A DNA stretch of 64,000 bases from Flectonema sp. DT1601 (Eukaryota; Euglenozoa; Diplonemea; Diplonemida; Diplonemidae). The position numbers and the translations under genes are program-made. Positions 23,289-51,252 of the stretch are shown one piece after another (the stretch's first letter is position 1; every line of letters starts with the position of its first letter). The stretch lies in the NCBI GenBank assembly GCA_964019425.1, contig OZ025809.1, positions 658,588 to 722,587 of the forward strand, given 5' to 3'. The notes beneath the pieces are model-generated. The model searched no databases. It was not told the origin of the DNA and saw only the letters and a program-made list of their open reading frames with translations.

Positions 23289-24893
23289 CTAAATGTCAGG
23301 TACAAACTGAGCATGGGAAGTAGACACAGGTTGCGGAGATGATTTTTTACTTCTGAAATTGTGGTACATAGAACGAAGGGCTTGCATTGGTGCCTTCGCT
23401 GGAGAAGCAGTGCGAGAAGAGCTTGGTTGAATTACTGTCAAAGAACGCTGACGGGATGAACGAACAGGCGGGGTGACCCCCCTCGGGGTAACGCTACCCT
23501 CTAACGGAAGTAGTGCCGGAGGACTGTTTACCGAACCAATACTGCTCTCAGGTGTAATCCCATAGGTTGATGAACCAGCATCGCATGTCGACAGTGGTGT
23601 TTCAAACACTTGCTCTTCTATAGTTGGTGATAATACACTTTGTAGTCTTTCTTCGACGTCCGATGAAAAGTCCATGTCTGCTTCTCTACAGATCAATACC
23701 ATTTGTCTTCCATGAGTCTTTAATAGACTTACAATATCAACAGATGAACTACTTGATAAATATTCTATAAATGATTTAATCCCACTTACATCAGAACTTG
23801 ATAATAGTTTGCAAAGACAGAGACTGACCACAGCCAGTTGACTACTTTTCATCAACATGTGAATTGCGTCCTTCACCATTGTTGTAAGAATCTTTTCACT
23901 CGTTTTTAAAAATCGATTGTTTGGTAAAAATGGGATTCCCACATCTCCGGACATACACATAAATGATATGTTCTCACTTAGACATGCGAAGACTTGTTGT
24001 TCTGCTACCCAACCAAGTTGTGCTGCAGTATCCTTCAGGTTAATAAGCCTGGCAGTAACAATCTCTGTGTCTTGATTGCCTGAGACAGTATAAAGTTTTA
24101 GTGGTTCTCTCTCTAAGCATTTTGAAGGAATTCCTAATTTTTGAGCTATGTACGATGTCTGGGCACTCAATGAAACGTTAACTGATATCGAAACACCCTT
24201 ATTAATTAGGTTGGGAGATGAAGAGTCCGGTGTACATATTCTTATGATCGTTCTCTGAGTAGATTTATCGACAACGGAATCCGATAATGAAGATGCCGAT
24301 GGTGATAATGACTGCTGTGATGAAATGAGAGACTTCTTTGGAACTGGAGTAGCATCTTTGAAAGCAATTAATGAACAAACTGCTGCATTTAGAAATGAAC
24401 AACTAGCAGGGATAGCGATATCACCAGACGTGTGGTAGTTTAGAATTGTTTGAGTCATGCTAACTAATCGATGTGATGATACGGTTGGTCCTAATGCTGC
24501 TTCCCTTAAGAAATCAGACGGAGATACATGGCATGTTGATCTCGCTGGTTCATTGTACTGCGCAGATACATATAATACAGAAGCTGCTAAGAGGTTAACT
24601 TCCCATTCTGGTATAGTTGATATGTTGTGTAGTATTATCTTTTCTAAAGTCTTTATAGTACTCTGAATAGTAATATCACCCCATCCGAAACCTTCTGATA
24701 TTCTGTATATCATTTCCACAACTTCCTTCCTCTTTTCAAAATTATATAATTTGCCAGTTTCTAACTTTGCGATGGTTTCGAGATCGCCTTCCTTCTCTCC
24801 CTTCGTCTCTTTCTTCTTCATCATTGCCCACATATTACATCCGTGAGCACCGTGAGCACCCCTCAGGTAGACACATCGCCTTCCTTGAGTCAT
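23289..24893 (-). CDS. cyclin-fold protein
   Basis: The 534-codon single-exon frame encodes a probable cyclin-box protein. Residues of about 50-175 follow the cyclin N-domain plan: an initial helix KRKEVVEMIYRIS, then TIKTLEKIIL, then EWEVNLLAASVLYVSAQYNE in the place of the usual LLAxxxLxIAxKxxE helix, then a final stretch with MTQTILNYH and a PASCSFLNAAVC segment. The second half (about 330-430) is helical. The last 100 residues are Ser/Pro-rich and basic (PPVRSSRQRS), probably disordered and phosphorylated. Cyclins activate Cdk-type kinases or act in transcription; which class this is I cannot say. The start is the first Met; MMKKKE 23 residues in is an alternative. A CAG lies 25 bases upstream. 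No breaks are seen. Confidence 0.6.
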   Translation of the reverse strand: MTQGRRCVYLRGAHGAHGCNMWAMMKKKETKGEKEGDLETIAKLETGKLYNFEKRKEVVEMIYRISEGFGWGDITIQSTIKTLEKIILHNISTIPEWEVNLLAASVLYVSAQYNEPARSTCHVSPSDFLREAALGPTVSSHRLVSMTQTILNYHTSGDIAIPASCSFLNAAVCSLIAFKDATPVPKKSLISSQQSLSPSASSLSDSVVDKSTQRTIIRICTPDSSSPNLINKGVSISVNVSLSAQTSYIAQKLGIPSKCLEREPLKLYTVSGNQDTEIVTARLINLKDTAAQLGWVAEQQVFACLSENISFMCMSGDVGIPFLPNNRFLKTSEKILTTMVKDAIHMLMKSSQLAVVSLCLCKLLSSSDVSGIKSFIEYLSSSSSVDIVSLLKTHGRQMVLICREADMDFSSDVEERLQSVLSPTIEEQVFETPLSTCDAGSSTYGITPESSIGSVNSPPALLPLEGSVTPRGVTPPVRSSRQRSLTVIQPSSSRTASPAKAPMQALRSMYHNFRSKKSSPQPVSTSHAQFVPDI

Positions 24894-25617
24894 TGTGAAT
24901 CTCGTAGGCGATGGTATTCTGGAATGATAAAATGGAATTATTTATTTATTTACGAAGCCTAGGAAGCCAAAAGCCAGGAAAAGCTCACAGAGTAACAGTT
25001 ATATCGAAGGAATAAGAGAACATATTTATTAAATAAAAAAAAAACGAAAAATCACCTTTCACTTTGTCAATTGACAGCTCTTTCCGAAAGAGTTGTCTTC
25101 ATGGAACCTGTCATAAGAAATATAAGTTTTAAAAAAAGAACTTTTTTTTTTTTTTTTTTTAATTTAATCAAAAGTTAGGTATAATAAGTTATTATACCTC
25201 ACCTCATGTAGAAACTTTACTTGTTTAATTATAATATTGTGAGCAGCTCTCTTTTTTATTATTATTAATTTCGTTATAAGGGGAAATTTGTCGATTTTAC
25301 CTTCGAAAACAACAAGTATGTTGTTACGTTGGACAGCACACGTAAATCTTCTCAACCGTGCTGAGGTTAAACTTCGAAATCCTCACAAATACATTCCTAC
25401 ATGATGTGTGTATCTGATGGTCGGAATTACCATGTCTGGAAGACACGATTCGAGAGACTGGGGTTGGAAGCAGTTTCGAGTCCAACCTAAATTAGTTTTT
25501 GAATCAGGTCAGCATGTTGTATTTGTTTCTATTTTATATTACACAATACTCTACCCTCTCGCAGTGGATGTCAAGTATTTGTGAGTCTATTCTCGTCATT
25601 GTCAGAGTTTACAATTA
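24894..25617. other. intergenic, nothing recognised
   Basis: This is the space between the glycosyltransferase stop and the cyclin-like start. A perfect 7-bp hairpin (GGTTGGA/TCCAACC) lies at about 25463-25488, but its arms do not form a tRNA. A poly-T run lies at 25141. Confidence 0.6.
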
Positions 25618-26988
25618 TCAATCTTCTTCACTATTCTCTTTGTGATGATGATGATGATGATGCTTTTTCTTTTTCTTTTTTTTCGGAGTCGGCAACGGAG
25701 GTAAGGTGTCTCCATGTGACTCCTTGAATGCCGCTTCTCGATATTCACCAAATTTCTGAGTGTATTCCCATTCAGTGTCTCGGAGCATCCACACATGGGT
25801 ATTGGGTGAAGTTTCAGCCCCCCATTTTTGGGTCCATTCTTCACTGTCGTCATCAGATGTGAAGTATTCACGATGCAGTAGTTCATATGCTGCCCACCAC
25901 TTAGAATGACCTTTTCCGAAATGTTCACTTGAGCGAAGGCTTTCATGAACAGCTTTAAGTTCAGATCGATCCCCCCATCTGTTATACCATGGCTTCCATG
26001 TTCCTGATAAGTGTAGTCCTACTACCCAGTCTGCTGTTACTTGCTGAGCTGAATATCTATTTCCTAAAAATACAACTCTCGCATCAATAAAATATCTCAT
26101 CACGAGACCATCTCTTCCATTAGTGGACCTAAACTTATATTTATCTTCTTTACTATTGCGTTCAGTGTTATAGAAGTTAAGTAATTCATCAAGTAGTTTT
26201 GATGAAGGTCTAATAACCATCGCTCCAGTGTGAAAATATCCTCTTGAAGAGTGTCCAGGAACAGCAGCAATCCAATGCTTGTCTTTGGGTAGTTCAATTG
26301 AGAATATTGAATCTGGATTACGTAAGATGACTATGTCAGCATCAAGAAACGCGATAACATCATATTCTGTTAAATTATAAAGATGAAACTTATCAAAAGT
26401 AGTCCCCCAAGTAGTTCCACTTATCTTTCTTGCTAGACTGTCACCATTCTTAATCTGAATAACGTTGTCGAAGACCCTTTGAAGTCGTTTCTTACCATTG
26501 GATGAGACATCAGGAGACATTAAAATTGCTGAGAAGCAGCGACGGTTTCCGTCTCCGTCTTTTAGCTTTATATATTTACTATGCTGTTGTAAAGAATAAC
26601 CAAGAACTAGAGCGCCGTCAATATATTTTTCATTTCCTATGAAGGTTACGAATGCAGCATTTCCATCGCTAGTATCTGGCGACCATGCGACGGTTGCTTC
26701 GCCATCGTACGGAGGTGCTTCCCAGGCAGATTTTCTTTCAGGTTGTTGTGGAGCAGTCGCGATGGGCATCTCATTGTCCTGTTCAATGTGTTGTGTTGGT
26801 GCCGCTGTGACGACGTTGTGTTTTTTCTTATGATGTTGATGTTGCTTAGCTTCATCGGTCACAATTCCAACCCTACTCTGTTTTGCTTTCCCTAAATTAA
26901 GCATCCCAGACACCAATGCCATTACTCCAATCGTTACTATTATTCCAACTGCAAGGGCAGAAGTCGGTATTCTCCCCTTCCTCGTCAT
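25618..26988 (-). CDS. Golgi-type family 8 glycosyltransferase
   Basis: The 456-residue protein resembles GT-A fold glycosyltransferases of the glycogenin/GT8 type. It is a predicted type II membrane protein: a short basic N-terminus, one hydrophobic segment (about residues 11-32, ALAVGIIVTIGVMALVSG), a His/Gln/Pro-rich stem to about residue 105, then the catalytic domain. AFVTFIGNEKYIDGALVLG is the nucleotide-sugar binding start, and FLDADIVILRNPD (about 213-225) carries the DxD metal site. FHTGAMVIRPS and GLVMRYFIDARVVFLG follow, as in GT8 enzymes. The tail is odd: a Lys run followed by a His run and an acidic end. The donor is probably a UDP-sugar and the acceptor is unknown. A CAG lies 18 bases before the ATG. 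Confidence 0.8.
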   Translation of the reverse strand: MTRKGRIPTSALAVGIIVTIGVMALVSGMLNLGKAKQSRVGIVTDEAKQHQHHKKKHNVVTAAPTQHIEQDNEMPIATAPQQPERKSAWEAPPYDGEATVAWSPDTSDGNAAFVTFIGNEKYIDGALVLGYSLQQHSKYIKLKDGDGNRRCFSAILMSPDVSSNGKKRLQRVFDNVIQIKNGDSLARKISGTTWGTTFDKFHLYNLTEYDVIAFLDADIVILRNPDSIFSIELPKDKHWIAAVPGHSSRGYFHTGAMVIRPSSKLLDELLNFYNTERNSKEDKYKFRSTNGRDGLVMRYFIDARVVFLGNRYSAQQVTADWVVGLHLSGTWKPWYNRWGDRSELKAVHESLRSSEHFGKGHSKWWAAYELLHREYFTSDDDSEEWTQKWGAETSPNTHVWMLRDTEWEYTQKFGEYREAAFKESHGDTLPPLPTPKKKKKKKHHHHHHHKENSEED

Positions 26989-27491
26989 TTTTTTGAGAGG
27001 GGAAACCTGATATTAAAGTGACTCAGTGCTTTTGCATATATCAGAACAACGGGGCGAGAAGCAATCCTCACAACAGGCAGAAATCGATCATTTTTTTCCT
27101 TCTTTTTTTTTTTTTTAAAAAAATGGATACCTGACTTAAGTTAGGAATATCATTTTTAAAAAAAATTTAAAAAAAAAAAAAAAAAAAAGAAAGAAAGAAA
27201 AGGATAGCATCGTGTGTGGTTAAATTCAGATTAAAATAATATTTAAATAAAATAAAACGAAATAAAATTTGTCAAAGAAACGAAAACATGCCTGCCGTTA
27301 TTAACTTACCATCGGATTGGATGAAAAGGAGGAGGGAATATAACTAATTAATAAATTGTAATGCCAGGTTAAGGGTTAGTAAAGACTGCCCTCCTTTCCG
27401 AGAGGGTTTTTATTGTTTTTTTTTCTCTTGTTTTTTTTTTTTTTTTGCTTCCATTTCATCCTAAACCAAAAACGTCAAACACTGGCAGACA
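26989..27491. other. intergenic, A/T runs only
   Basis: The space between the SNARE gene stop and the glycosyltransferase start holds long A and T runs and nothing else that I can identify. Confidence 0.6.
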
Positions 27492-28212
27492 TCACCAGAA
27501 GAGCCAAATCAAAAATAAACAAATTGCAATCAGGACTCCAAGAACCCTGTGTTGTTGTTTTTTTTTTTTTTTTGGTTTATTTTTTTTTTGTACTATTAAA
27601 AAATATATATATCACATACAGGGTATCACGTTGTCTTTTGCTTCTTATGTTTCCAAGAATTGCGTCGATACCGGGAATTGAACCAACGATGTCACCAACA
27701 CGACCACCAGCACGTTGAAGGACAGAGGCCTGATTGTCTAATGAATTTTGACTTGCTAAGGCTGCGTCAGCAAGTCTTTGAGTGGCGAGGGTAGCCGAGG
27801 CAATTGAATCCGCTTCTTGATTGAGAAGACGAGACCCCTGAGACTCAGCGTATTCTTCTAACTCATGATGAACGTCATCTAATAATTGTGATCTTTGTCG
27901 TTTATTATTTAATGATTGAAATATCTGTGCTAACGATCTGTCCTTTTCCGATGCAACTTCCTGATATCTCTCTGCTTGCTGTCTTAGAAGGGGACCTTTT
28001 TCATTTTCTGCCCAATCTGCCAGTGTTCTAGCACTAAGCCTAAGACTGGATATTAAAGACTTTGCGTCATTATACAATGATGTGATATGATCAGGGTCAG
28101 TTGTCACATCCATCTTCTCAAGTTGGATAAGGTGAGATTCGATTTCTACTTCCAGTTTCCGGACTTCTAACTTTTTACGTTCCCACATTTGGTGGTCGTC
28201 TCTTTCCCGCAT
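27492..28212 (-). CDS. GOSR1: GOS28-like Qb-SNARE (2 exons)
   Basis: Exons are 28212-27620 and 27546-27492, with a 73-base GT-AG intron (GTATGTG...ACAG) joined in phase 2; together 215 residues. The join completes RDTLVLGVLIAICLFLIWLFW, a C-terminal membrane anchor missing if the first exon is read through. The N-terminal half is coiled coil (ERKKLEVRKLEVEIES). The SNARE helix runs from about residue 140 (LLNQEADSIASATLA), with the zero-layer Gln in SLDNQASVL. IPGIDAILGNIRSKRQRD then matches the GOS28 pattern FPxxNxLxxxIxxRKRRD before the anchor. GOS28 acts in ER-Golgi and intra-Golgi fusion. The start MRERDDHQMW fits family length; an upstream in-frame Met would add poly-Lys. A CAG lies 44 bases before the ATG. 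Confidence 0.82.
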
Positions 28213-28638
28213 TTTTTTTTTTTTTAAAGCTTTTTTTTTTTTGGGAGGGGTGTGTTCTGATCGACAATTAAATTGAAATTTAAACTTTTTCACCAACGTA
28301 ATTAGTAGATCCATTTAAAAAAAAAAAAACAGCTGAATATTGAAAAAAAAAATAAAAATACGAGTTGCTCGCCAAGGTATCGCCTTGGTAGGCGCATTGC
28401 TCTACTTTCCCGTTCTTGTCATTATTGCGTGCAACAGAAACTGTTCTCATCGCTCATATTCTTTGTAGTCCACCCATAGTCGGCTGAGGTTGTATTTAAA
28501 AGCCGGTTTTAGAGTTGTTTCATGTGTCATTTTTAACTATCCTCTCACTAACATCAGGTAATTGCTGCTGTTTAATAAAATAAGATTCTGAACATGGAAC
28601 TGACAATAACAGCCATCATCATCTCAAAGTAACAATAC

Positions 28639-28669
<31 letters not shown>

Positions 28670-28832
28670 GTGTTTCTTTTTAGGGTGTTAGGGTAGGAGG
28701 AACCGAAACCACAGATGCCAAACACGGCAAAAAAAAACAAAAAATAAATAATAATAATAAAAAATAAAGTTTAGTAGCGGGGTTGTGTTCCTTCTTTCCG
28801 AAGTCAAGTCCATTGAACTCGTCAGTGTGATT

Positions 28833-28869
<37 letters not shown>

Positions 28870-29497: not shown

Positions 29498-29530
<33 letters not shown>

Positions 29531-29550: not shown

Positions 29551-32500
29551 CTACTCTCCATTAAGATCCTCATCAAGAGGTGGAGGAGGTGGAGGAGAAG
29601 GTTTCGTAGGCCGGTCTGGTGTCTGTGCCGTCAGCTGCTCAACATCTGATTTCAATGTAACAACAGCGGGTGGAACATCACTGCCATCTGTTTCCTTTAG
29701 AAGAAAGTTTACCCACATGTCAGAGAGCGAAGGTGCATTTGCGTCATTGTCTTTTGATGGTGTGAGTGCCTGCCACCAACTGGTACCTTGTGGCTGCTTA
29801 CGTGTGAGACCCGATGTCTCGTTTTCGTCCTCTGTCCAATTCATTGCTGAAGATATAATTCGTAGTACGTCAGCAGTCTGTTCTCTGTTTCTAATTTTTG
29901 TGATGTACGAAAGAATTAATTTCGATATTACCTTTTTATTAATTGAACTTTCTGGATCTGCTTTCAACATAACCTCGTCATGAACTTTCCTGAGATACGC
30001 CAGTTTATTTTGTAATGTTTGAATTATGCTGTTTTTTGATCCAATCTCCTTTGCCATTCCCTTCCTAACTTCTTCTAATTCAGAAGTTCTGGTTGAAACC
30101 ATCGTGTTACTCTCATGTAGTTGTTGCTGAGCTTTGCACATGTCTGACATTAGAGAGTCTGTTCTTTTTAGTATTTCAGACTCCTTGTCTGCTATAAAAT
30201 GATCCAGTACAGATTGCAAATTTATAATTTTCTCGTTTGAAACTCGAAGTTCGGAAATACGTTGCCCATCATCAGTATGAATAGCGTCAATCTGATGACC
30301 CAATTCAGTTATCTCATCTTCTTTAAGTGATAGATTACTTTCTAAGTCGGCAACCTTGTGATTTAATTTATTTTCCATATCGATGTAGTTCGAGTCCGCC
30401 AGACGGAGTTTTTCTTGAAGAGCAGCATTTTTATTACTTTCATCTTCGCAGCGGTGTAGCTGAGATGTAACGTCTTTTAATTGAGTTGTCAAACGAGTAA
30501 TAGTGAGAGAACTTTGTGATTCAGAGTCCTCGTTGTCAAGTAAGCTATTTTGTAAAATTTCATTTTCGGAAACGACGTCTCGCAAGATTTGTTTTGTTTT
30601 CGATAGTTCCGTTGATTTAACGTCGCAAAGTTCTTTCATTTCCATGACCTCAATCCCCTGCTGCTTTAACGACTCATTCAGCTGTCGTACTTGAGTTCTA
30701 TAGTCGTCGAGTTTACTAAATTGCTGATTGAGTTCTTCTTTTCTATTTTCAGCCAGTTTACTCATCGATTCGTATTTTCCAGAATTATCTTTATGCCAAT
30801 CATGATACTTTGATAAGTTAGTATCGTAGACCTGTTTTTGATTCTTACCAGATTCTTCTAAAGCTTGTAATTGCTGCTCTAATGCAATTCGTTGTTGCTG
30901 TAGGGTCTTTACCTGGTTTTAGTTTTAGTTTGGTGTTATAAATAAAATGATTCAAAAAAAAAAAATATGAACAAATAAAACACTAACTCAATTCATACCT
31001 CATCATTTTTATCAGATAGTACCTCAGTGAGTGATGTTACTTTTTGATCAAGAGATGCATTCTGATAGTTTATTTATTATTATTTTTTTTTTTTCTCAAG
31101 AAAGAACATTCTTGTTAAGACTGGTATTATCAATTGGAATGATTTACAATCTTGGAAAGGGTTTAGTTTCGTATTACCTCAGAAAAGGTTATTTGAACTG
31201 ACTATTTCGGTTATACAAAAAACAGATTATCAGATTCGAAAATAAAAAATAAAAAGAACTCCACATACCTCAGCAGCAAGGGAATCGCTGGCTTGCTGTT
31301 GCAGTGGTGTGGCTTCAACTGACAGGAGTTGCTGTTGTTGCTGCAGCTCTGCGTTGAGAGATTGTATTTCATTTTCAAGGCTTTGACGAATTTGCTCTGA
31401 TTCTGATAGGTTGTTTTGCATGACAACGATATCCTCATTGAGTTTAGTGACCTTTAAAACATCCTCATCTCTTTCTGACAAGGCTGAGTTGGCTTTTTGA
31501 AGTTCATCGTCAGTCGATTGAAGAAGACCTTTCAATTCAAACATCTCTTGAGATTCACACTCGAGGACATCAATCTGAGCTGTTAAAGTGTCTTTATCAG
31601 AAACTAATTTTTCATTTTCAGACTGCACTAGCGAAAGGCGCTCTTTCAACTCCTCTACGAAGTCGTTAGCAGAAGGATCTTGTTCATTTGTTTGGTTTAA
31701 TTTCATGTTTTCATCAGTTTCTTTCTTTTCCTCGAGTAAGATAACGTTGTCCGATCGAAGAGTATCTGTTTCTGTTTTTAATTGTTTAATTTCTGTTTCA
31801 AGTGAAGCAATTTTTGATTCATCCCGCGCGGTGACATCTTTCAAAGAACGGTTTTCAGATTCAGTCGTCAGGAGTTTGTCGTTGTTGATATTTAAGTTTT
31901 CAATTTCTTGTTTTAATGAATCGATTTGTTGTAAAAATTCTAATTCATTTGATGAGTTGGCGGCCTCCGTAAAACTATCACACTGCTCTTGTAATATTAA
32001 TTTATCCGAAGACAAAACCTCCACTTCAGATCTCAACGAACCATTTTCATCTAAAATAGTAACATGAGCCTCTTGCAAGGCTTCCTTCTCCGTCGATGTA
32101 ATTCCTATTTTCGATTGCAGGTCTTCAATTGTGGATCTGAGTGTTGAATTGTCGTTAACAACATCATAATGAGAAGACTGCAACTGCGATAGTTGTTCCC
32201 GTTGTGATAATGAGACTTCTAATTCTGCTTTGAGTGACTGATTCTCATCTCTGAATTGAATGACTTCACTCGTATCATTAGAAAGCTTTTCCACTTCATC
32301 TTCCAACTTGGAGAGTTTCTTCAGAAGGGATGACTTCTCATCTGTTAGAGTACTATAATCACTTAGAGTTGTATTGTGTGATGATTGTAGTTGGGATAAT
32401 TGGTCTTCCAACTTAGAAACTTTTCCTTGATCAGATTGATTGTCTTTTAGTGATTTCTGATGATCAACTTCTTCTTGTAATTTACCGACACGTTCTGCGA

Positions 32501-33662
32501 GAGCTGAGACCTCAGTCGGATCAGAGTCGGATAAAATTAATTCATTAAGAGCTTTGTTCTCTTCTTGACAAGCTGTGAGCTTTCTTTGTACATCAATGAG
32601 TTGTGGATCGTTGTTGTCTAAATCTGTTCTGGACTCTTCACTGGCCTCAAGTCTACTGAGAATATCATTCTTGACGTCGATTGAATCAGATAGTTTCTTT
32701 TCTAAAACTTCTGCTGCAGCGGTCATCTCCAACAGCTGATTGTCAGAATGCTGACGAGCAGCTTCTGTTGCCGTCAGTTGATCAGTCAACTCTCTAATGT
32801 CCTCAGTAAGAGAATTAGATTCGTGTTGTTGCTCTAGGAGGTGTGCTCTTGCTAATTCACTTGCAGCCAATTGCTCCTTTAATTCAGTGATTGTATTGTA
32901 ATCAGTCTCTTGAATATTTGATAGTTCATTCGCATGGTCCTCTCCATTCTCTTTCAACTGGATCGCAAGATGTTCACGAGCTTTTTCACTCGCTTCCAAT
33001 TGCTCTGATAATTCATTTATTTTATTGTTTAGTTCGATTCCGTCGCAATCATTTTTTTCTGTAGAGTCCGAAGTGATCTGTTCGGATTTTTTTTCTTTTA
33101 ATAGCGTCTCGAGATCCCTACGACCTTCCTCACTGGCTTCCAGCTGATCTGAAAGAGTTTTAACTTTCTCTTCTAATTGGTTGTTAAGAGTGTCCAGTTC
33201 GATCCCGGGAGAGGGATCCTTTTGGACCTGTTCTAAAGCGGAAGTAAGTTCGGTGTTTGAAGATTCGGAGACGCGGAGCTGTTGCTCGAGAGAAGAAACT
33301 TTTGTTTGAAGAATGGATGCGGAGTCTGAGTTGACGAGTTGCTGCTGGAGCGAGTTTATTTGCTTCTCAGCGTCAAGTAGTTTTGATTCTCGCAACTGGT
33401 CGTTATCATTCTCCTGAAGTGATTTAATTAGTTCGTCTTTGTCGGCAAGTTCTCTTTGTAGAGATGAACAAGTCAAGAGTAAAGTTTTATTTTGTCGTTC
33501 GTATGCGTTTGCGTCATTCACATCGTCATCGTCGCCGTCGTTTTCATTTTTGATGAGTGCCGGGGATTCGTCTTCTCCGTCGCTGTCGGCGAACTCGGGC
33601 TGAATTAATTCGTTCACTCCCTCAGTCACAGCTCCCAGTAGAGCTTTACCCCAACCAGCCAT
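29551..33662 (-). CDS. GMAP-210/Rud3-like golgin (3 exons)
   Basis: Exons 33662-31269, 31061-30999 (63 bases) and 30912-29551 join in phase 0 through GT-AG introns of 207 and 86 bases, giving 1272 residues. The N-terminus, MAGWGKALLGAVTEGVNELI, is a short amphipathic helix like the membrane-sensing segment that begins GMAP-210, followed by an acidic stretch. Most of the protein is coiled coil rich in Glu, Gln, Leu and Ser. Near the C-terminus (about 1137-1185), NKKVISKLILSYITKIRNRE then LRIISSAMNWTEDE matches the GRAB domain of Rud3/GMAP-210, which binds Arf1. The tail ends in a Pro-run. The expected role is tethering vesicles at the cis-Golgi, alongside the SNARE encoded next door. A CAG lies 12 bases before the ATG. 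Confidence 0.82.
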
Positions 33663-35022
33663 CTTGTGGACAACCTGTTTTATGAAAAATATTACACTTC
33701 CTTCAGTAGATGAACAAATAGAAAAAGAATGGATTCACAGCATCAAACATCTCTTGCGGTTGGCGGACTGGTTTTTTTATTTTTACATTTTTTTTTTTTT
33801 TTTTTTTTTTTTAATAACTTTTATTGCACGAAATCACCTGTCATGTAACGAAAAGTTATTTTACTATTTTGTCTATACTTTGATATGTAGTGACGTAGTG
33901 ACCCAAGCCAATCATGGTGCTTGGAAAGATGTTTTTTTTTTTTTTCTTTTTTTTTTTTTTTTCCTCTTCTTGTTTTTCGTTCATTCTCACTTTCCATCTT
34001 TTTTTCTCTTTTTTATTTTCATAATTATTATTCTTCTTGTATTTTTTTTTTTTTTTTTGTTTTTTTTTCAGTGCGAAGAGTGAGCAATGAGTATGGCAAA
34101 CAGAGAACTTGTCGATAATTATAACAATATGACAACTTGCAAAAGGAAAAAAGAAAAAAAGGGGAGGGGGAAGGTGGGAATAAAATGAGAGAAAGAAAAA
34201 AAAAAACAGAAAACTAACTTGCACTAAAATAACTGTAAATAAATTGATATCGTTTCTTTGTACTTACTGCTTTCCTTTTTCTCCCTTTTGTTCACTGAAC
34301 TTACGATTGCATTGTTGCATCAAGGAAGAAACGAGGAGTGGGCTTAGTTCGTTCTCGATTTCGTTTTGCGGGCAAAAAAATCCCAATCCTGTCCTAGTAA
34401 CCTTCTATTGTTAATGAACTCGTTTTCCCCGCCTACACTTGATCTCACTTCTTTTCTGCATCTTTTTTTTTTTTTTTTTTTGATTTTATTCTTGTTTTTT
34501 TTTTTTTTCGTTGTTTTTTTGTTGTTTTTTTTTTTTTTTGCCTCCCCTTTCCCTTCCCCGGGTTCTCCTCCTTCCTTTCGCAGTATTTTTATGACGCGAT
34601 GGAGAAAGTGAATCAAATCCGATCTGCACGACAGCAATACAACGCACGAAGTAAGTCCCCTAAATTAGCAAAAATCAAATTGTGTATTTTGTACAAAAAG
34701 AAAATCTTTTTTGTACCCATCTCGCGCCTCTTTTCCCCATTTTGAATGACAAAAAGCATAGGACACAGGGGAGGGACACATGTGAAGGGAGGGGAGGTAA
34801 GCGGGAAATAGGGGCAGGGAAAGGGGCAGTGAACATAAAATAAAAAGCACGAACGAAACGTAACCGATGATGCCTATTTAAGGCTTGAAATTTTTCTTTT
34901 CCTTGTTTTTTTTTCTTCTTCTCCCTCATCTTTTTTTCGGATGTGAACTCAGTGCGTGCAATAGAAGTTCCTCCAACACTTGCGCACCGATAACAGTAAG
35001 CATGCTTACAACTAGTGAATGA

Positions 35023-35054
<32 letters not shown>

Positions 35055-37155: not shown

Positions 37156-37190
<35 letters not shown>

Positions 37191-38567: not shown

Positions 38568-38838
38568 ACTTACCTCTCAGAAGTATGTGACCTGATCTGA
38601 ATAAAGAAAGATAATAATATTTAAAGTTCGATAAACTTTTCTGAGTTCATTGATTCTCCTTCTTCTTCGAGTTCGTAGTTAGACTTCTGAATGGGAGGTA
38701 AGAAAATAATATAAATAAATATTAAATAAAAAAAAATATATCAACAAAAAAAAAAAAAAAAAAAAAAAAAACACAACAAAACAGAAACTAATCGTAAAAT
38801 CAGAGAGCGAAACAAACAAAACTTTTAAATTCAGACAA

Positions 38839-39579: not shown

Positions 39580-40179
39580 TTTTTAGTTGTGTTTTCTTTC
39601 AATATCTGCAATTTATTATTTTAAAAAGAATTTTTTTTGTTTTGTGAATAATAATAATAACAACTAGCCTTCATACAACGCACGCTGAGAATAATAATAA
39701 GATTAAAAAACAAGAGTAGCAACCACTAAATACTAATAAAGTAAACCTGAGGAACTCAATCCCCTCTACTAAACTAATAAGATGCTTACAGTCGACGAGG
39801 GGAGGGGTACAACACTGTTGTGGGCCACCTTATTCAGTTCTTTTGTTTGTTTGTTTTTTTTTTTTACTTGGAGGTTTGTCTTCCGATTGCGAGCAAAAAA
39901 TAAAAAGACAAAAAAAAAAAAGAGAAAAAAAGGTAGCTGTTAGGTTTCAAGCAAGTCTGGAGTGTAGTTACTTTTTAATTGTGCCCGACAACCAACTTAA
40001 ACTGAGAAAGCTAAAGGAGGTTTACGTGTGCTAACATTCTTGTTCCTCTTGCGATAATTGTTAATGCAAAAAATAAATGGCTAGGGGGGGGGTGCTACTG
40101 CTACAATTTTTTTCTCTTCCTTTGTACAAAGGCGACGAGACGCTATCATTATTGATACGGGGGGTTAAGGACATTGTAC
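39580..40179. other. intergenic, nothing recognised
   Basis: Between the formin stop and the SNF8 start there are short AT-rich runs and no credible gene on either strand. Confidence 0.6.
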
Positions 40180-43100
40180 CTAAGCCACAATGTCTTCTTG
40201 AATAGTGGAGTCTACCAGCGAGTTCATATCCACATTCTTTGCTGTGATCCTTCCTCCCACATTCTTTTTCTTTGCAGCTGCAGCTGCTTCCTGTGACATT
40301 ATATCGGCTTCCTTCTTAAAGCTTTCGTAAAACTGGAACATCGACTCAAAGAAGTCTTCTGGTTGTGGTTTCTTCATTTTAATCTTTGGTGTTGACCACA
40401 TCAGAAGAATACTTTCAAAGTTGGACTTCAGACTTGTGTATTGTTCTTCGAGATCTTTCATCTTTGCTTCAGCAGCTTCTTTAAAGGATGATAACTTTGC
40501 TTTGTATGGATCGTTTGTGAATCCATTCTTATCAGAGAACTGACAAACACTTTTGTACTGGTTGCCAAACTTTGCAAGTTGATCACGGACCTGTCCAAAA
40601 GCAGAATCTAAATCCTCGTATTTAATATCTTTGACACCATGAACAGCTGCATCTTTCAAGTCATCAACTACTTTCATCGCTTGTTCTCTGTTCTTCTTTA
40701 CGGTGTGTACAAGATGCTGAATCAAGTTTATCTTTCCTGACGTATCTCTCGCTGCTTCCAACTGGGTAAGAGTTCTCGGAGCAAAAGCTCCAGCGTTTCC
40801 TTTTTTACTGCCGGCGTTCATCATGTTTCCGAATCCGAGTAGGACTCCTGTTATGAGTTTGTTGTGGTTATTATTCCTCTTTAATCAGAGAAATGGGGCA
40901 AGAACAAAATTTTAAATTTTAATTAAAAAAAAAAAACTCACCACCAATAACATACCCATAATATAAGGAAGTTCCTCGCATGCGGTGACGGCGTCAATAG
41001 CAGTTCGTAACTTTAAAAGAGGTTTCGTAAAGTTCATCGTAATTTCACCCCAATCCTGAGAGAACAACCAAGTCTCAGCACGCTTCTTGAAATTACCGCT
41101 ATTGTAACTGTTTGGTAAGTGTTGGAAATTGTTGTTAATATTAAATAACACCGCAGCAGCTGAAGATAAACATTGGGCTAGTTCAAGAAAGACATACTCG
41201 TGGATCATCTTCATGTATAATTCTGGTTTCTCCCAATCTTCTCCCTTGGCGTTCTTCTCGTCAATCTTAGACACAAACATATCTTCCTCATCTTCGTTAG
41301 GGATCTGAGCCTTAATTGCTTCAAGGCAGTCTCTGTTGAGAAGTTCAGAATCAAGATTGTCAATAGCCTTCTTAATATCATCAATAGCAGGCATCTTGTG
41401 AAGCATAATGGATACGTTTTGGAACTTCTTTGCGTCCATCATTTCGATTCTCTTTTCTTCGACCTTCTTGCTGCCTCCGGTCTTCTTCGGTTTCGTCTGA
41501 AACTTCGCGACGAAATCCTCCTTATCGAATGAGCAGTCAATCTGATGATGAACTTTGTTCCAGATAGTACCCGTCGCCATGGGTCCGTCAACGGTTGCCT
41601 TCTCCCAATGGAAGACTCGAAGAGGGATGGCAGACTTGCCTCCTTTCCACCATTCGATGGTAGGTGCAGCTGCGGCGGCTTTTCGAGGTGGTGCAGGCAT
41701 TCTCTTTTTCGCTGTACCTGGTGGTGGTGGAGGACCACCCGGAGCAGCAGGTGGCGCAGGAGCCCCACCTGCTGTTGGAGGAGGTGGTGCTACCGCTGTA
41801 CCCGGTGGTGGAGGTGCTGGAGCTCCACCTGCTACTCCTGGTGGAGGTGCACCACCAGCAGGAGCACCCGCACCTGCATCAGCAGGCGGTGGAACTCCAC
41901 CACCAGCAGCTGCAGCAGCTTGCTGAACAGAGTTTTCATATATTGCCTGCTGTTGCTGATGAATAAGTTGCTGTTCAGGACTGGCATCAGCAGGTAGCGG
42001 AGGTGGTTGATCGGCCGGAGGAAGAACATCATCCGAGTCATCGGAATCGCTGTCGCTGTCGCTCTCTTCTGAAGAGGACGGCGGCAGGTCATCATCGCTA
42101 CTCGGCGGCTCCTCATCAGACGGCGGGAGAACATCATCTTCGTCTTCGTCACTCGGAGGGACATCATCGTCTTCATCACTTTCACTGTCCAAGTCACCAC
42201 TTCCAGTACCTTTTTTAACGCCTTTTTTACTTCTCACATTTGAGACACCACCATCCCCTTCAGGTCTAGCAATAGGCCCAACTATCTTCTCAACGTGTGA
42301 CATAAAGTCTGGTGCGGACATATAAACTTGAAATAACTTATTTCTGATATCTACAAGTCCCGCATCACTTGGGATGGCTCCGATGTTAACTGGCTTAGAA
42401 GGAAGCTGCTGGGTCTTAGTGGGAATAGGGATGCCACCTCCCTCAGAGAATCTCTTTGCAGGATGATAATTGGGTGACAGGCCCATCTGAAGAGAAATTG
42501 ATCTCATAGTCTCTTGATATTTTGTAATATTTACCTTAGCATGTCGTACTCTACCTTGTTGCTGTTCAAACATGAATACTTCATTAGATACTTTATCATA
42601 CGCCTTCTTCTCTTGATCAAATTTTCCTTTTAATTTTGTAGCCTCCAACCAGCAACCAGGAACCTTTATTGTACCAAGTCTTTTATCAAAGGTTGCTAGT
42701 AAACGTTTTAAGGTAGGGTCTTCTGATTGCATTGATTTGACTTTGTCAATGAGTCCACACTGAGACCATAAAAATAGTAGTTTCTTTGCTTTTAGTTTTG
42801 AAGCTGTAACTGCTTTGCTCAGTAAAATGTTAAGTAGACCCAGAACATTTGTTTGAAGATGAGTTTCGGGTGTTGATAATAAATTTATAAGTGATTTGTA
42901 ACAATTTAATCCTTCTTTCTCTCTCATGAGACGTTTTACTGATCTGTGGACTACCTGTCGACCAGCGTCAGACTTATCAGATGAATCGCGAAGAAGATGA
43001 TTATCTTCTTGATTTAAAGATCCTAAATGCTTCACAGTCACAATCAGTGTTTGAATGGCTGGTTTGCTTACTCTGATTCTCGCACATCCAGACTCATCTA

Positions 43101-43407
43101 CAGAAGTAGCACATCTCCAAATACGGTCAACAATATCAGGTTGAGTTGCAAGTTGTTGCATTGCATTCAAGTACAGCAGTAAACAACAAACTGCTTCTAG
43201 CAGATATCCAACGTCAGATCCAGTCCCATCACCCATCATGTCAAGTAGCTGTAGGATACCTTTTTCATCTACTAGTTCTTCAGCAAAGTCTGCATCTTCG
43301 TTAATACGTTCTTTTAATTTATAAATTAAGGCACCACGACTTCGACTACCTGGTTCATGTTTTAGGATTTCAGCAAGGACTGCCTTGGGATTGCCGTCCT
43401 CCCCCAT
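40180..43407 (-). CDS. diaphanous-type formin (2 exons)
   Basis: Exons 43407-40956 and 40847-40180 join in phase 1 through a 108-base GT-AG intron, giving 1039 residues. Reading through the intron instead would end the protein inside FH2; the join makes LPYIMG-VLLGFGNMMNAGS, the conserved FH2 helix. Order: an armadillo-like GBD/FH3 region (about 1-330, with GILQLLDMMG and CCLLLYLNAMQQL); a Ser/Asp linker (about 402-465) repeating LPPSDE-like units; an FH1 Pro/Gly/Ala run (about 470-572) that would bind profilin; and FH2 (about 590-990, starting IPLRVFHWEK). Formins nucleate and elongate actin filaments and usually answer to Rho GTPases. The tail lacks an obvious basic autoregulatory motif. 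The start MGEDGN is preceded by a CAG 30 bases upstream. Confidence 0.92.
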
Positions 43408-44215
43408 CTTATTTTTCTTCTTTTTGTAACGTATTTCCTGTGAAGTAGAATGATTATTTTTTATTTGTAGTTTTCTCCAAAATCTTTTTTTTTTTTTTTT
43501 TTTTTTTGACAACCTTTGAGGAAGCCGGGGGTTCACACACATGCTGGTAGTTCTTTTGCTTTTCTTTTGTCAGCTGGAATTGCATCTGAGAAAATTAGCA
43601 GTCTTTAAAAGCTGCCACCCGTCACAGTCGTACGGGTAGGTGTAAAACTTTGTGAGTAGAGCTCTCAATAACACTCTCCACCGTGGTCGACCTTAATATG
43701 TGACACGAGACGCGTTTCTTGTCCTGTCCTAGCATGTTACATAATATGGTTTAAAAAAACAAAAAAAAGATCATAAGTCGAGAGAGGGATTTTGTTTTAC
43801 TTGGGTATTTCTTCTTCCTTTTTATGTAAACACCTCATTATCAGTTTTTTTGTTTTTGTTTTGTTTTTGTTTTTCCCTCCAACTGACAACAGAGGGCAGT
43901 TTATCCCTAACGTGGTTTGCCTTGTTTTATTTTGTTACTGCTTTTTTTTTTTTTTTTTTTCTGTTCAAGAAATAAATTTTCTATTTTATCCGACAATAGA
44001 AAACTGTTAAGGGAAGGAAGTGAGAGAGGGAAAAGGGAACTTTGGGAGGAGAAAAACAACCTCAGTTATTATACCTAGTACCTGCTAAGTGTAACGTCCT
44101 CTACAGTATCACAGTACGCTTTGTAGCGAACAAGCACTCGTTGAAAAAGAAAAACAGTAATGGAAAGAAGCTGTAATGTTCTTTAATAAGAAGAAGATTG
44201 TCCCATCCCCAGAGT

Positions 44216-44247
<32 letters not shown>

Positions 44248-44744: not shown

Positions 44745-46162
44745 CTAAACACTTTTAATCTCACGTTCGACTTCAGCTGATTTTCCTTCCTCGAGCATCT
44801 TCTCCCAGCGAACGATTCTTGAATTACCTTTGATCATAATGTTAACTAACTCTACTTCGGATTTTCCGAGTCTGTCTGCATTTGAAATGTCCCACTTCCC
44901 TCCAACGGATGCTGAGTCAACACCAGCTGCTCCTCTTGCCTGTAGACCCATCTTCTTACAGATATCTTTGAAGTCTTTTCTCGCTGAAATCTTTGGGATT
45001 TGAAGCATCTGTCCAGCACGTAGTCCAGTTCCAAGGTTTGATGGACAGGTCAGGATGTAACCAAGATGTTTGTTGTGCCTGTTATTGTTGTTTAGTTTAA
45101 TTAAATAATTAAATAAAGAGAAACTATTATAAACACATACATGAAATCATAACCCTCAGACTTCAACACTTTCTGAACACCATCGCAAGCGGAAGTAAAC
45201 CTGCTGAAGACATCCTTAATGTTGTCTCCTTTTTGCATCGATACAATTCGGAGATGATCTTCCTCACCGACCCAAACAAAGAAGTTCTTTGCTTCGTTGT
45301 GGTAGATACCTCTTGCGTCAGGCCAGTGACGTCCCATACCACTGGCAAGAAGAAGTGTTGAATCAGGTTCCTGAAAGAGATTACCAGCTGAACGAAGATC
45401 GTCTTCCTTTTGCTCAGACATACCTCCAATCTTTGGAATGTAACTCATGCTACCGTGTAGAGGGTAGTAATCACCTTTTAAGTTTCCTTTTAAGTTGAGG
45501 AGACCCTTTACACAAACTCTTTCCAGTTCTCTCCTTTCATTGAATCCAATTGCAGGAGGTAAGTTGATTCCACGAACAGATCTACCAGTGCGAACGCGAG
45601 ATGTTAGAACGTATTTACCGCTTGGGTCAATCTTTGTATCTAAAACATTATTAATATTCATATCAGTCGGGTGAATAGCTGTTCTCGGGTATCCATTGTG
45701 TCTCGCTGAAATAATCGGCTCAAATAGATCAGCGAATACAGAGAACGATTCCTCATCACCAGCTACGATACCACAAGTTTTAATCATTGGATGGCCAGGG
45801 TTGTCAACACCTGTTTTAATACACTTTGCGAGAGTGACACCATTCTTAGTTTTAGTATCTTTGTACTTCTGGTACACGTCTGGGTTCTTTGATAAAAACT
45901 CTGCCATAAAGTTTGAGTGCTTTGATAGATCTGGCATGTCATCTGGAGTGAAGTCTGCTGGGAAAGTTGCGTTCTTCTCAACACAGTAGTACTCTTTATC
46001 ACCACAGCCTGCTTGAATCCACTTTGGAAGCTTTCTTACACCTGCTGACATGTGCTCTGGTGGGTATCCCAAAGTTGCACACTGAACCTCATCCTTAGCA
46101 CATGAAACACCAAACCCAAGCGCACCAGCTGCTAGTAAGCGAATTCCGGAACGACTGTACAT
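44745..46162 (-). CDS. phosphagen kinase, creatine-kinase type (2 exons)
   Basis: Exons 46162-45141 and 45078-44745 join in phase 2 through a 62-base GT-AG intron, giving 451 residues. The join yields [20 protein letters not shown], the catalytic Cys segment. [26 protein letters not shown] and [13 protein letters not shown] are phosphagen-kinase hallmarks. The substrate-specificity loop [20 protein letters not shown] has creatine-kinase length rather than arginine-kinase length. Two positions are odd: Tyr where creatine kinases have Trp (RGIYHN), and Gly in VGEEDH where NEEDH is usual. The N-terminus is about 60-70 residues longer than cytosolic enzymes, and [20 protein letters not shown] looks like a mitochondrial presequence. 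Likely role: reversible ATP to phosphagen transfer for energy buffering. The true guanidino substrate is uncertain. A CAG lies 23 bases before the ATG. Confidence 0.9.
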
Positions 46163-47210
46163 TTTACTTTTTATAAGTTGTGTAGCTGTTTAAAAATATA
46201 TATTATGATCTGAACAACAGCACGCTGTCAAACCTGAATAACCAATTCTATTTTATTTACTGGGGGGATCGAATTTATTGTTACACAACCGATTACACAA
46301 CAGGTCAAAAAAAAAAAAAAGTATGCAGCTAATAAAGAACTCTGTAGACCAAATCTTGTTAGGATTTAGGGGTCATCATTTACCTAATAAGCAATGACAC
46401 ACACACGTTAACGCGTTCTCATATTGTTGACAAGCTTACTGGAAAATGAATGAATAATAACAATAGTCAACTATAAGATGATTAACCACAAAACTATTGA
46501 ATAAGAATAATAACAGTAAAAGAGATACAGTTTAAAGAAAAAACATAAATTTTGGAGTGTTTTCTTTCTTTTTTTTTTTTTTTTTTTTTTTCATTCTTTT
46601 ATCAGTAGTGCAAGTACTAAATTACTAAGATACAATGGGAAAACTACTACCAGAGGGGGGAATAAATCGTTTGATTTTGTAAAAATGCAACTGCTTTGTA
46701 CCATAATAAAGTAACAATGATAAGTTACTACAGTGACCAAGGCGATGCGTAACTAAGCCTTTCATCCATATACCTCTTAACCTCTATTCTACTCATCATC
46801 AGCTATGGTTTAGAAGTCAGTCAGTCAACTACTGAGACAGTCGGGGGGTAAACTGTTTATACGATATGTAAATCTCTGTATTATATCAAAGCTAAATAAT
46901 GAAATCAGCAAAAAAAAAAAAAAAAAAAACTCATGCCACAATGACTAATAATGTTAATACAGGCTAACACTCCGCAATTGACGTAAATAATCCATGTCTC
47001 TTTTTTCCGTGTTGTACGGAATCGAGTTATTCAATTACTTCAACCAAACCTGGGTATGATGTAATACGGCAGAGTGTCTAGTCTCGTCAAGAAATAAACA
47101 ATCTAACAGTCGGGAGAATTAACATATGATATAAGTATATGCGTTGTATCAAACGTTAACTAATAACCAGGGAGATAAAATTGATACTCTTTTTTTTGAG
47201 GATGGGAAAG

Positions 47211-47242
<32 letters not shown>

Positions 47243-47329
47243 GGAAATAACAACAATAATAAATCTATCAATAAATAAAACAATACGAAACAAGACGAAA
47301 AGAACGAAAAGAACCGAAAAACGGAACTA
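46163..47329. other. intergenic with dispersed repeat
   Basis: The centre (about 46657-46860) is a copy of the dispersed repeat also seen at 61328-61545; the rest is AT-rich with A or T runs, the longest near 47210. I see no gene. Confidence 0.6.
46657..46860 (+). repeat. dispersed repeat family copy
   Basis: TTTGATTTTGTAAAAATGCA and CTGCTTTGTA (46670-46700) parallel GAATTTGTAAAATACAACTG and TTTTGTA at 61344-61370. Later, CCATATACCTCTTAACCTCT (46767-46786) parallels CCATATACCTCTTACCTCT at 61471, and GTCAGTCAACTACT parallels GTCAATCAATTATT near 61520. The copies are diverged and similar in length, about 210 bases. Confidence 0.65.
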
Positions 47330-49375
47330 CTAAATATCAAGATCGTCTAACACAGAAGGAGGTCTCAATGACGCCTCTTCGATGATCATACAACGGTGGC
47401 TGACTGTACTGATGCCCATCGTCAAGAGGTCGGAGTGTCTCTGTGTTTGGTTTTGTAAGAAATATAACTTTTTAAAATAATACTCCATGTTACCCACATA
47501 TATAATATCTCTCCTCTCATATTGAAGCTAGTATCTACAATATGCTACTCGATCACTAAAGTAATATAATTGAAGAACTATAAAACATACCATGAGTGGT
47601 ATCTCAGTACATGTCAAGTTATGAGTTATAAATAAAGACACATAGGACTCAAGATTGATGCGGCGAAGAAAACGAGAGATCGCTGCTGTCTCCGCTTCTT
47701 GTTTAGCACGTGTGCGAGTTATTTCATTTATCTTACTCTGTCGACGAACCATCTGAGAGGTCTCTGTTTTGAGACGAGAAAGAATATCCTGCAGTTCACG
47801 GGATGCCTTTTTCTTAAAGGAAGGAGATGAGGGCTTCTTGTCACGGTTTGTAGCAAACTGTTTCCTGCCTGCTGAATGATCCTGCTCGCGGTGGTGTCTC
47901 TGGGGAAGTGCATCTCTCTTCGACCTTCTGGTATATCGGACATGGTCATTTTGTTTATGGGTTGCTACCTGTGGCTTTGCAGTAACAGTTTGTACTGCAG
48001 CAGAGACCATTTTCGCTGGCAATAAGTTGCTCCGTTGGTGCGCTTGGTGTGTCTGGGCTGGAACATTTCTGTGCGAAAGTTGTTTTTCTGACAAAAAGTT
48101 TTCCACTCCGTGGCCTAACTCCTCATCATACGGGTGAGCTTCCCCCACATCTTGTATTCGGTGCTGGTTGTCTAGTTGTTGCTCTAAGGCTCGAACGCGA
48201 TTTTCCATCACCGAGCCGCCACTCTTTCCGGATTTTAAAACTTTTGTCAGAATAGTATCGAGCATTGAGCAAACTTTCTCAAACACCTTCGGCTGAGAAC
48301 CTTCCGGAGTTTTGCCCACAACTTTAGGAGGCAATTCTGAATGTGGCACATCGTGTTTCAGCTTAGAGTGGTATTGTTCATTGTCGGTTATTTCATTCTC
48401 GAGTGAGTCTTCAGACACTGACCTGTGAAACTGCAGTACCTTACCACTCTCTCTTGCAAAAGTTGCAAATTCCGGCTTTGGTACAATTGCAGGCTCTTGC
48501 ACTATTGGTGCCTTTCTGACGTCTTTCATTTTCTTCTTCACCCGAGCTTGCTTTTCCCGCTCATTTTGCCTCATTGCAGTCGCCGCGAGTTGCATTCCCA
48601 ACTGAAGCATTTGGGCTTGTACAGGGTGGACACTGACATTCGTGTTCGAGGGATTTATGTCTGCAGGTAGCTGCCTAGGCGGCAACTGAGATATGCCAAC
48701 TGGGTTATCAGTATTTAGATCCCGCAGAAAGGATTTATTATTATGATATACTCCAGAAGAGGCAAGTCGTTGTTGGAAGTTAGTACTAAGTGTATTTGGA
48801 TGTGGTGTATTTCCGTTAGGCACCTGCAATGGTCCATTATTAACCAAGTTAGCAGTTCCTTGTAAAACAGGAGGTTGTGCGTTGTGTGTTGTTTGTAGTG
48901 CATTAACGTTGGTGCCCGGTGCCTGCAGTACTGGATTAATTAAGTAACCGCTCCCTTGTAAAATAGATTGTGTTTCTGCGTTTACTAATTTGCTAGCTTC
49001 TGGTAGAGGATGTTGAATACTTGGCTGCGACGTATTTTGTTGAACACCATTAGTTCTGTCTACCAACTGCGATGGCACATTTGAGTTGGCTTTTGGCATC
49101 TCAATAGGAATTTCCTCAAAATTAGCCATAGTGTTGGTGTTGGTGTTGGTATTGGTACCATTGTTGGGATTGGTATTGGTTTCTTGTCGTATTTTATTTA
49201 TTTCCTGGTTCTCGAGTGGTACCCCAGCTGGGCTATTCATGACTGACGGATGCTGAGTTGGAAAGTAGGGAGAAGTCTGATGCGTCCCAACAGGTGGTTG
49301 AAACGGCATGGCAAGGGGGTGAGTAAACGCAGGATGTGAGTACATCGGCGGCGCGAATGGATAAGGATGATGTAA

Positions 49376-49414
<39 letters not shown>

Positions 49415-50598
49415 GTGATGGTGGTGTTGATGGTGGTGTTGATGGTGGTGCTGATGGTGCTGAAAGTAATAATCCCAGCCAGGAGGCACCTGAGGGTGCG
49501 ATGGCGAATCTTTTTTCACTTCCTCAGGTGTGCTATTCCGATCAACAGGCGCTTCTTTTTCAGGTGATTTCTTCTTCTCGTTTGCATCCTTTTCAGGTGT
49601 TAGTGGAGGAGTGGGTGTTCGCAAACGTTCCTTCTTTGTGCTGTTATCAATACCCTCCTCAGCTGCTTCAATGCTCGCATCATCTTGAACGTTTTCATTG
49701 CTCTGAGAGGTGGCCTTAACGCTGCTGGCTATGCTCCCGACAGAAGGGGCGGGTGACGGTGCTTTTTTCTCCTCTTTTTTTTTTGATTTTTTAGGTGTTG
49801 GGGGTGTTGAAGTCTTCTTCTTTTTTTTCTCCTTCGGCGATCGCTGCTTTGAAGAATGCCCCGACTTGGCCTCCGACTGCTGCATTGCGGCTTCCTGTGC
49901 GAGTCTCTCTTTTACTTTGTCTATTTTGGATTCCATCACTTTTGCCTCTGCAGATCCCTTTTTTGGGGCTGCATCCCACTCGGCTACCCCCTTATAGAAT
50001 TCTAAAAAGCTTGATTTTGGGTAGTACTCGCCATCGGTGCAATCTAACCGCAAGTCTTCCTTTTTTTCTTTCCCTCCATCACCTTTTCCTTTTTTTCCAC
50101 TTTTTTTCGCCGAGTTTTTCTTCTTGCTCTTCTCTGGACTCTTTTTATTCGATTTCTTTACATCCTTCTTGGCATCACCCCCATCTCTTGATTTATTTTT
50201 TTTACCAATTTCGTTTGGGTGGGTGAAACCCTTCCTATGATGAGAAAAGTTGTATTTTATCTTAAAATAGCAATTTCATAATCCACAAATAGAGTCTACT
50301 GCGAATGTTGACTGTATTATTCGGGAGAATAGCTAACTCGAAATCAAACAAATAAACAAAACAAAAACCACCGAGAAAACTACACTAACATTGCTCATTC
50401 ATTTGCGATTATTTTCTCTATGTCTTCCTCTCTCTCAGGGCGGTCACAATGATATTTTCATTTTAAAAAGCTGTATACAATAATGTTGTGAAGTCAAGGC
50501 ACCGAAGCAACGAATTTCGTCATTAAGTTATTATTATTTAGCACCTACTTGCTGAGAAACAGGTACGTACCCTTTATCTGTACTTTGTAATCTGACAT
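47330..50598 (-). CDS. SAM-domain protein, His/Lys-rich (2-3 exons)
   Basis: The main exon is 50234-47591. It is open in frame from the AG acceptor ATAG|G but has no ATG at its start. The last exon, 47440-47330, joins in phase 0 over a 150-base intron. That join completes a C-terminal SAM domain: ISRFLRRINLESYVSLFITH...EIPLM, then RHSDLLTMGISTVSHRCMII. A possible first exon, 50598-50567 (MSDYKVQIKGT), fits in phase but its donor GTACCT is weak, so the start is tentative. Total about 928 residues. Features: Lys-rich N-terminal tract; DGEYYPKSSFLEFY; Lys/Ser/Pro region; a His run (about 49374-49460) between Pro segments; an Asn/Thr run; and a basic C-terminal coiled coil. I know no full-length relative. 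SAM domains usually self-associate or bind partners. The cellular role is unknown. Confidence 0.7.
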
Positions 50599-51180: not shown

Positions 51181-51252
51181 TTATTTAACCTAACAAAAAC
51201 AAATGACCGCAAATATCGGTACACTTATATATAATATTGTCTACATATTATT

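Follow-up and report, generated by a model that had tools for sequence, protein, structure and literature searches.

How do nine genes that all lie on one strand obtain their separate mRNAs? The question is raised by a stretch of 64,000 nucleotides (nt) from Flectonema sp. DT1601 (assembly GCA_964019425.1, contig OZ025809.1, positions 658,588 to 722,587), here called the window, in which nine genes were recognized between positions 23,289 and 50,598. A sequence-only reading of the window had noticed a CAG shortly before the start codon of eight of them and had proposed that a polycistronic transcript is resolved by spliced-leader (SL) trans-splicing, a process for which it named Euglenozoa, here borne out, along with dinoflagellates and relatives and several animal groups. 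Diplonemids, the group to which the host belongs, are marine and related to trypanosomes. We analysed 264 kb of DNA (the window and 100 kb on each side, with one stretch masked) and searched the assembly (89.5 Mb, 92 contigs). As judged from the DNA, the nine genes almost certainly belong to a diplonemid directional cluster, whose mRNAs would be cut at a CAG 12–44 nt before the ATG and joined to the SL. The pattern is real, and SL trans-splicing and one-way clusters are both expected and known for diplonemids; the newer part is a set of retrotransposons that carry the SL at their head.

Results

SL RNA genes

The SL exon, AACCAACGATTCTAAAGCTACAGTTTCTGTACTTTATTG, is 39 nt long and is followed by a GT donor. 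We take the SL named 'Euglenozoa 14' to be that of Diplonema. The exon is identical to 'Euglenozoa 14' at 37 of 39 positions and differs at two (PMC3795323). A search with a 60-nt exon–intron pattern, allowing up to three mismatches, gave at least 619 SL RNA gene matches in the assembly (239 + 380), match counts for such repeated sequences being lower bounds, and none for the reversed control (0 + 0). The tandem SL RNA gene that the sequence-only reading had proposed to look for is thus present, in arrays: among the approximately 100 matches listed, tandem genes lie near the ends of contigs C16, C22 and C28, C27 and C33 each have a single place, and the spacings are 623 (the C16 unit), 610, 606 and 436 bp. 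At one contig end (C28:357-27012) the genes stand 436 bp apart, tighter than the 606–623 bp units elsewhere. The euglenozoan SL 3′ end followed by GT matched 775 places at up to two mismatches, which may include dispersed copies, and no place when reversed.

On C16, where linkage to 5S ribosomal RNA (rRNA) genes was examined, the 623-bp unit includes, in the same orientation as the SL and before it, a 5S rRNA gene (Rfam RF00001, 98.7 bits). Among the scanned loci, L022 contains three such genes and L026 five, each before an SL; L021, a locus that does not form an array, has none. Stem-loops are predicted for the SL RNA and U-rich stretches are seen by eye, with RNA ends guessed and without comparison to shuffles. 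An SL-like pattern chosen blind (GTATGT...TTTTTGG) was uninformative, with four matches and three in the control. Within the 264 kb, three 16-mers of the SL had no match and one 13-mer had a single match, which was disregarded; an Rfam scan of the window gave no match.

Strand organization

We scored coding-like open reading frames (ORFs) and exons by the codon use of the nine-gene set's own genes, counting exons apart and including some ORFs of mobile elements, so that the tallies are not gene counts. On this basis, 42 consecutive ORFs or exons lie on the minus strand: all 28 of the left 100 kb and all 14 of the window as far as 50.3 kb. To the right of this run follows a mixed stretch from 54.5 to ~121 kb from the window start (four plus, five minus), after which 16 of 16 lie on the plus strand. 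The pattern looks like two diverging directional clusters. One-way runs on neighbouring DNA had been proposed as a check of the polycistron reading; carried out on the same contig, the check finds the minus run extending through the left 100 kb and plus-strand ORFs at the right end. We read the nine genes as belonging to a long directional cluster that is very probably co-transcribed. The first 23,000 positions of the window (1-23000), within the minus-strand run, contain only one coding-like ORF (10178-10486) and have a GC content of 32–36%.

CAG upstream of start codons

For genes 1–8 (Table 1), the CAG-to-ATG distances are 25, 18, 44, 12, 29, 26, 30 and 23 nt, exactly as first described, and an ORF scan confirmed that all nine genes lie on the minus strand. 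The sequence-only reading put the chance expectation of a CAG in such small regions at a quarter to a third; for the 13 ORFs of the window we obtained 32–38% in regions further upstream and 25–32% in dinucleotide shuffles, in agreement with that estimate. Eight out of eight is indeed unlikely by chance (~2e-4 at a rate of 35%), a figure that is optimistic because the ATGs had been picked by eye. Inspection by eye also bore out that the cis-introns of the window genes use the same CAG acceptor, with GT donors.

We then sampled 45 ORF starts mechanically across the 264 kb, using the first in-frame ATG of each, a choice that is wrong for internal exons and for element ORFs, both of which the sample includes. 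Controls were same-size regions further upstream, dinucleotide shuffles and antisense regions. A CAG was found at −50 to −5 in 31 of 45 starts, compared with 45% upstream and 34% in shuffles (p~0.001 against 45%). CAG is the most enriched of all 64 trinucleotides (29/45 against 19.0 expected from upstream regions). Counted in 12-nt bins from 3 to 51 nt upstream, CAG occurs in 9, 15, 10 and 10 of the 45 starts, and in the next eight bins in 4 to 12.

Host

The best named match of the phosphagen kinase encoded by gene 8 is the creatine kinase of Diplonema papillatum, at 78% identity; four EukProt transcripts score higher (91, 84, 82 and 82%). Because this best named match is to D. papillatum, the host is, on sequence similarity, a diplonemid (Euglenozoa). 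We take the window to be nuclear DNA.

Dispersed SL copies

The SL also occurs outside its own genes. We found 82 places at which the SL end is followed by something other than the SL intron: 79 at which the base after the last 26 bases of the SL is not G, and three at which GTT replaces the GTA of the SL intron. The search covered these two kinds of follower, not G followed by a base other than T, and some copies hold two places. We read 18 distinct loci, namely the first ten of the non-G listing, the places with a double SL and the GTT places. In 18 of 18, the sequence headed by the SL belongs to one of six repeated families (A–F, Table 1), all of which have two or more members. One copy each of families B, D and F was shown to encode proteins with Pfam RVT_1, Exo_endo_phos_2 and RNase_H domains above cut-off, and these families are accordingly non-long-terminal-repeat (non-LTR) retrotransposons. 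Families A, C and E were read over ~1.5 kb downstream of the SL, and the ORFs scanned within that distance in C and E gave no reverse transcriptase (RT) domain.

At all 18 loci the family's own sequence follows directly after the SL, or after a 10- or 16-nt piece of it, and the SL intron is absent. In thirteen loci, 38 or 39 of the SL's 39 bases are preserved, and the others keep 36, 36, 35, 26 and 22; since the search patterns required the 3′ end of the exon, the 3′ SL end of the copies is given by construction, and their 5′ end is not. Downstream of the SL, copies within a family agree by up to 99.9%. Upstream flanks are shared within families only by L041 and L042 (99%), and three pairs from different families (L027/L044, L029/L035 and L032/L034) have shorter upstream repeats in common. 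The SL exons that head these families are most readily interpreted as fossils of trans-spliced transcripts, which would mean that the copied RNAs were SL-headed.

Near contig ends the SL copies read outwards. Among the 79 places, all 19 within 60 kb of a left contig end lie on the minus strand, and all six within 80 kb of a right end, on contigs of known extent, lie on the plus strand. Over all 79, the left halves hold 30 minus and 9 plus and the right halves 11 minus and 29 plus, with the extents of the other contigs interpolated from size rank. The 1.5-kb flank upstream of the SL has a coding score >30 in the sense direction at six of the 18 loci and in the antisense direction at three, the rest being undecided; as L041 and L042, both among the six, share one flank, this tally is inconclusive for the direction of host genes.

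In family D, two of three loci have a tRNA gene on the opposite strand (Lys and Gly) whose 5′ end lies 22 and 9 bases, respectively, from the start of the SL match; at the third (given as L037) the tRNA lies 1,150 bases off.

SL-on-SL junctions

At eight places the SL is followed by TTTCTGTACTTTATTG, which is the SL sequence after its only CAG. These eight junctions occupy seven distinct loci (L035, L036, L039 and L041–L044) in families B, D and F. In the simplest reading, the CAG of an inserted SL apparently served as trans-acceptor in the next round of transcription and copying. Such re-use of the inserted CAG would be independent evidence for CAG as a trans-acceptor in this genome. At L030 a 10-nt duplicate of the SL end (TACTTTATTG) comes after the SL; its start is not preceded by an AG.

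We compared nine 5′ ends of family B: six are clean SL, one carries the 10-nt piece, one carries the 16-nt piece and one is unmatched by the SL pattern. The bases just before the 5′ untranslated region (UTR) at the matched ends are TTG in 9/9 and CAG or TAG in 0/9 (the pattern did not include AAG and GAG), and no CAG-headed master copy of family B was present among the nine places matched. Clean copies may be renewed in one of three ways: the 16-nt direct repeat may collapse, an unseen master may supply them, or template jumping may produce them.

Genes of the window

Coordinates are collected in Table 1. The gene names given in the sequence-only reading held in part. Pfam matches agree with glycosyltransferase, SNF8, formin and phosphagen kinase, and weakly with golgin; at 1e-3, the scanned ORFs of the cyclin, the SNARE (exon 1), the PP6 subunit (two exons) and the SAM protein (long ORF) had no Pfam match. 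In gene 3 the mechanical first ATG is at 28314, upstream of the CAG. The N-terminus of the gene 8 protein aligns by eye with that of EukProt protein P0005.

Gene 9 had been described as lacking an upstream CAG. It indeed has no assignable acceptor, but its tentative first exon (~50598) falls inside a repeat, so that its true start is not assignable and the missing CAG is not countable as an exception. The repeat is at least 1,046 bp long (the query ended at 51500, and the repeat may extend further), and an inverted copy, 98% identical, lies ~78 kb away on the same contig. It holds a remnant that resembles, by eye, a reverse transcriptase. A search for homologues that would fix the start of gene 9 gave none at 1e-10 among 7,983 candidates scored.

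Table 1 Genes and repeat of the window, and loci of the SL-headed families
Feature	Position or loci	Strand	Details
Gene 1 (cyclin-like per sequence-only reading)	23289..24918	-	Predicted mRNA body start 24918; CAG 24921-24919; ATG 24893; from ORF and CAG
Gene 2, glycosyltransferase family 8 (GT8)	25618..27006	-	Pfam PF01501, 2e-06; CAG 27009-27007; ATG 26988
Gene 3 (SNARE per sequence-only reading)	27492..28256	-	Two exons, end of exon 2 placed by eye; cis-intron ends in CAG; putative trans-acceptor CAG 28259-28257; ATG 44 nt downstream
Gene 4 (golgin per sequence-only reading)	29551..33674	-	Several exons; GRAB 4.7e-05, below cut-off; CAG 33677-33675; ATG 33662
Gene 5 (PP6 regulatory subunit per sequence-only reading)	35746..38596	-	Several exons; CAG 38599-38597; ATG 38567
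Gene 6, SNF8/EAP30	38839..39605	-	Pfam PF04157, 3.3e-46; CAG 39608-39606; ATG 39579
Gene 7, formin (FH2)	40180..43437	-	PF02181 in both exons; GT..CAG cis-intron; putative trans-acceptor CAG 43440-43438; ATG +30 nt
Gene 8, creatine-type phosphagen kinase	44745..46185	-	Two exons; PF02807/PF00217; CAG 46188-46186; ATG 46162
Gene 9 (SAM protein per sequence-only reading)	47330..50275	-	Long ORF exon; short last exon read by eye; TAG acceptor-like site ~50233
Repeat over tentative first exon of gene 9	50455..51500		blastn within 264 kb
Family A	L027, L029, L033		SL-headed
Family B	L028, L030, L034, L043		SL-headed; endonuclease, RT, RNase H
Family C	L031, L032		SL-headed
Family D	L035, L036, L039		SL-headed; endonuclease, RT, RNase H
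Family E	L021, L046, L047		SL-headed
Family F	L041, L042, L044		SL-headed; endonuclease, RT, RNase H
tRNA side loci of family D	L036 1406-1478, L039 1411-1481		SL-to-tRNA proximity, as in tRNA-targeting elements

Discussion

The SL RNA genes, the strand run, the diplonemid host and the SL-headed families together support the proposal of SL trans-splicing of a polycistron. In the mechanism that they suggest, (i) a polycistronic pre-mRNA would be cut at a CAG 12–44 nt 5′ of each ATG, and (ii) the spliceosome would join to each piece a 39-nt capped leader from a separate SL RNA, itself encoded by several hundred repeated genes that are linked to 5S rRNA genes in the units inspected. For the eight window transcripts, we infer SL addition and co-transcription.

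Several observations weigh against this mechanism. The CAG excess at mechanically chosen ORFs is moderate: taken alone, the left 100 kb has a CAG in 12 of 18 starts (control 46%, p~0.06), the right flank is without clear excess (8/14 against 51% in the control), and antisense regions contain a CAG in 17/45, and in 8/13 for the window's own ORFs. The 20 bases 5′ of the eight CAGs are only 50–80% pyrimidine, the PP6 gene has a donor-like GGTAAGT immediately 5′ of its ATG, and gene 9 contributes no acceptor. Finally, the host was identified from one protein search and the SL.

Two other explanations of the CAGs have to be considered. They might be acceptors of ordinary introns in the 5′UTR, with an upstream exon and a promoter for each gene; the cis-introns seen by eye do share the CAG acceptor and the GT donors, and at one gene the sequence cannot separate cis from trans. 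This explanation nevertheless needs all eight genes to have a 5′UTR intron ending about equally far from the ATG. From the stop codon of SNF8 to the acceptor of PP6, only ~240 nt are free. The explanation is also confronted with hundreds of SL RNA gene matches and with SL-headed genomic copies of transcripts; we consider it very improbable. Less probable still is that the CAGs are fortuitous, the strand run a coincidence and the genes transcribed singly without SL. Chance alone does give a CAG in between a quarter and a half of such regions, and the ATGs were those chosen in the sequence-only reading, but eight of eight CAGs, 31 of 45 ORFs, an unbroken one-strand series of 42 ORFs or exons and the SL RNA genes speak against it. 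The CAG counts, the strand run, the SL RNA genes and the SL-headed copies lead us to reject both explanations in favour of trans-splicing.

A further alternative concerns the dispersed SL copies only. The RT may have jumped from the element's own RNA to a free SL exon or SL RNA, in which case the copies would be no record of trans-splicing. Template jumping has been described for the reverse transcription of long interspersed nuclear elements (LINEs; PMC2104539), and the TTG before the 5′UTR at all nine matched family B ends, among which no unspliced master was found, fits it. Against it, the family's 5′UTR follows the SL without an intron in 18 of 18 loci, an exact end that is partly given by construction, and the SL-on-SL junctions start exactly after the CAG in three families, as splicing would give. 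We therefore regard template jumping as an unlikely, though not negligible, origin of these copies and prefer trans-spliced transcripts as their source. A more specific proposal, to which we give an even chance, is that several non-LTR families took the host SL as their own 5′ end. Their RNA would be trans-spliced and recopied with the SL, the inserted CAG could be the next acceptor at any landing site inside a polycistron, and the element would carry its own mRNA start signal and need no promoter.

These results bear on how such genomes can be studied. Acceptor placement and strand alone suffice to recover SL trans-splicing from 64 kb read blind, and a group with few contiguous genomes gains one, that of a diplonemid. 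The SL-headed retrotransposons suggest how elements could move without a promoter in genomes transcribed as polycistrons, and they suggest a means of recognizing trans-acceptors from DNA alone.

Cis-introns are rare in kinetoplastids, whereas the genes described here keep ordinary cis-introns, and the 5′ part of the SL differs as well. Shared with kinetoplastids are the 39-nt SL exon with its common 3′ part CAGTTTCTGTACTWTATTG (PMC3795323), multicopy SL RNA genes and polycistrons (PMC8061765). Dinoflagellate retrogenes resemble the dispersed copies in that the SL is reverse-transcribed at the front of the copy, with multiple relicts from repeated rounds (PMC6050394); their SL is unrelated, and here the identified carriers are endonuclease–RT–RNase H elements, in which the re-used acceptor is apparently the SL's internal CAG. 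The SLACS/CRE elements of trypanosomatids are likewise non-LTR elements tied to SL sequence (PMC12278014), but they insert into SL RNA genes, whereas here the SL exon is the 5′ end of the element and the loci read lie outside SL arrays.

For diplonemids, no report of SL-headed retroelements stood among the papers listed by PMC full-text searches, whose scope excludes supplements and subscription journals. The D. papillatum gene models include retrovirus-related, LINE-1, SLACS-like and R2/jockey-like elements, and SLs at their ends are unmentioned in section 8 (PMC10161547). The D. papillatum assembly, at ~280 Mb, is larger than the 89.5 Mb here. In that species the SL is reported on essentially all mRNAs, one-way gene arrays occur in nearly 90% of contigs >50 kb, and ~41% of genes have introns, mostly GT-AG; one-way clusters, GT-AG cis-introns and genomic retroelements are features that it shares with the genome studied here (PMC10161547).

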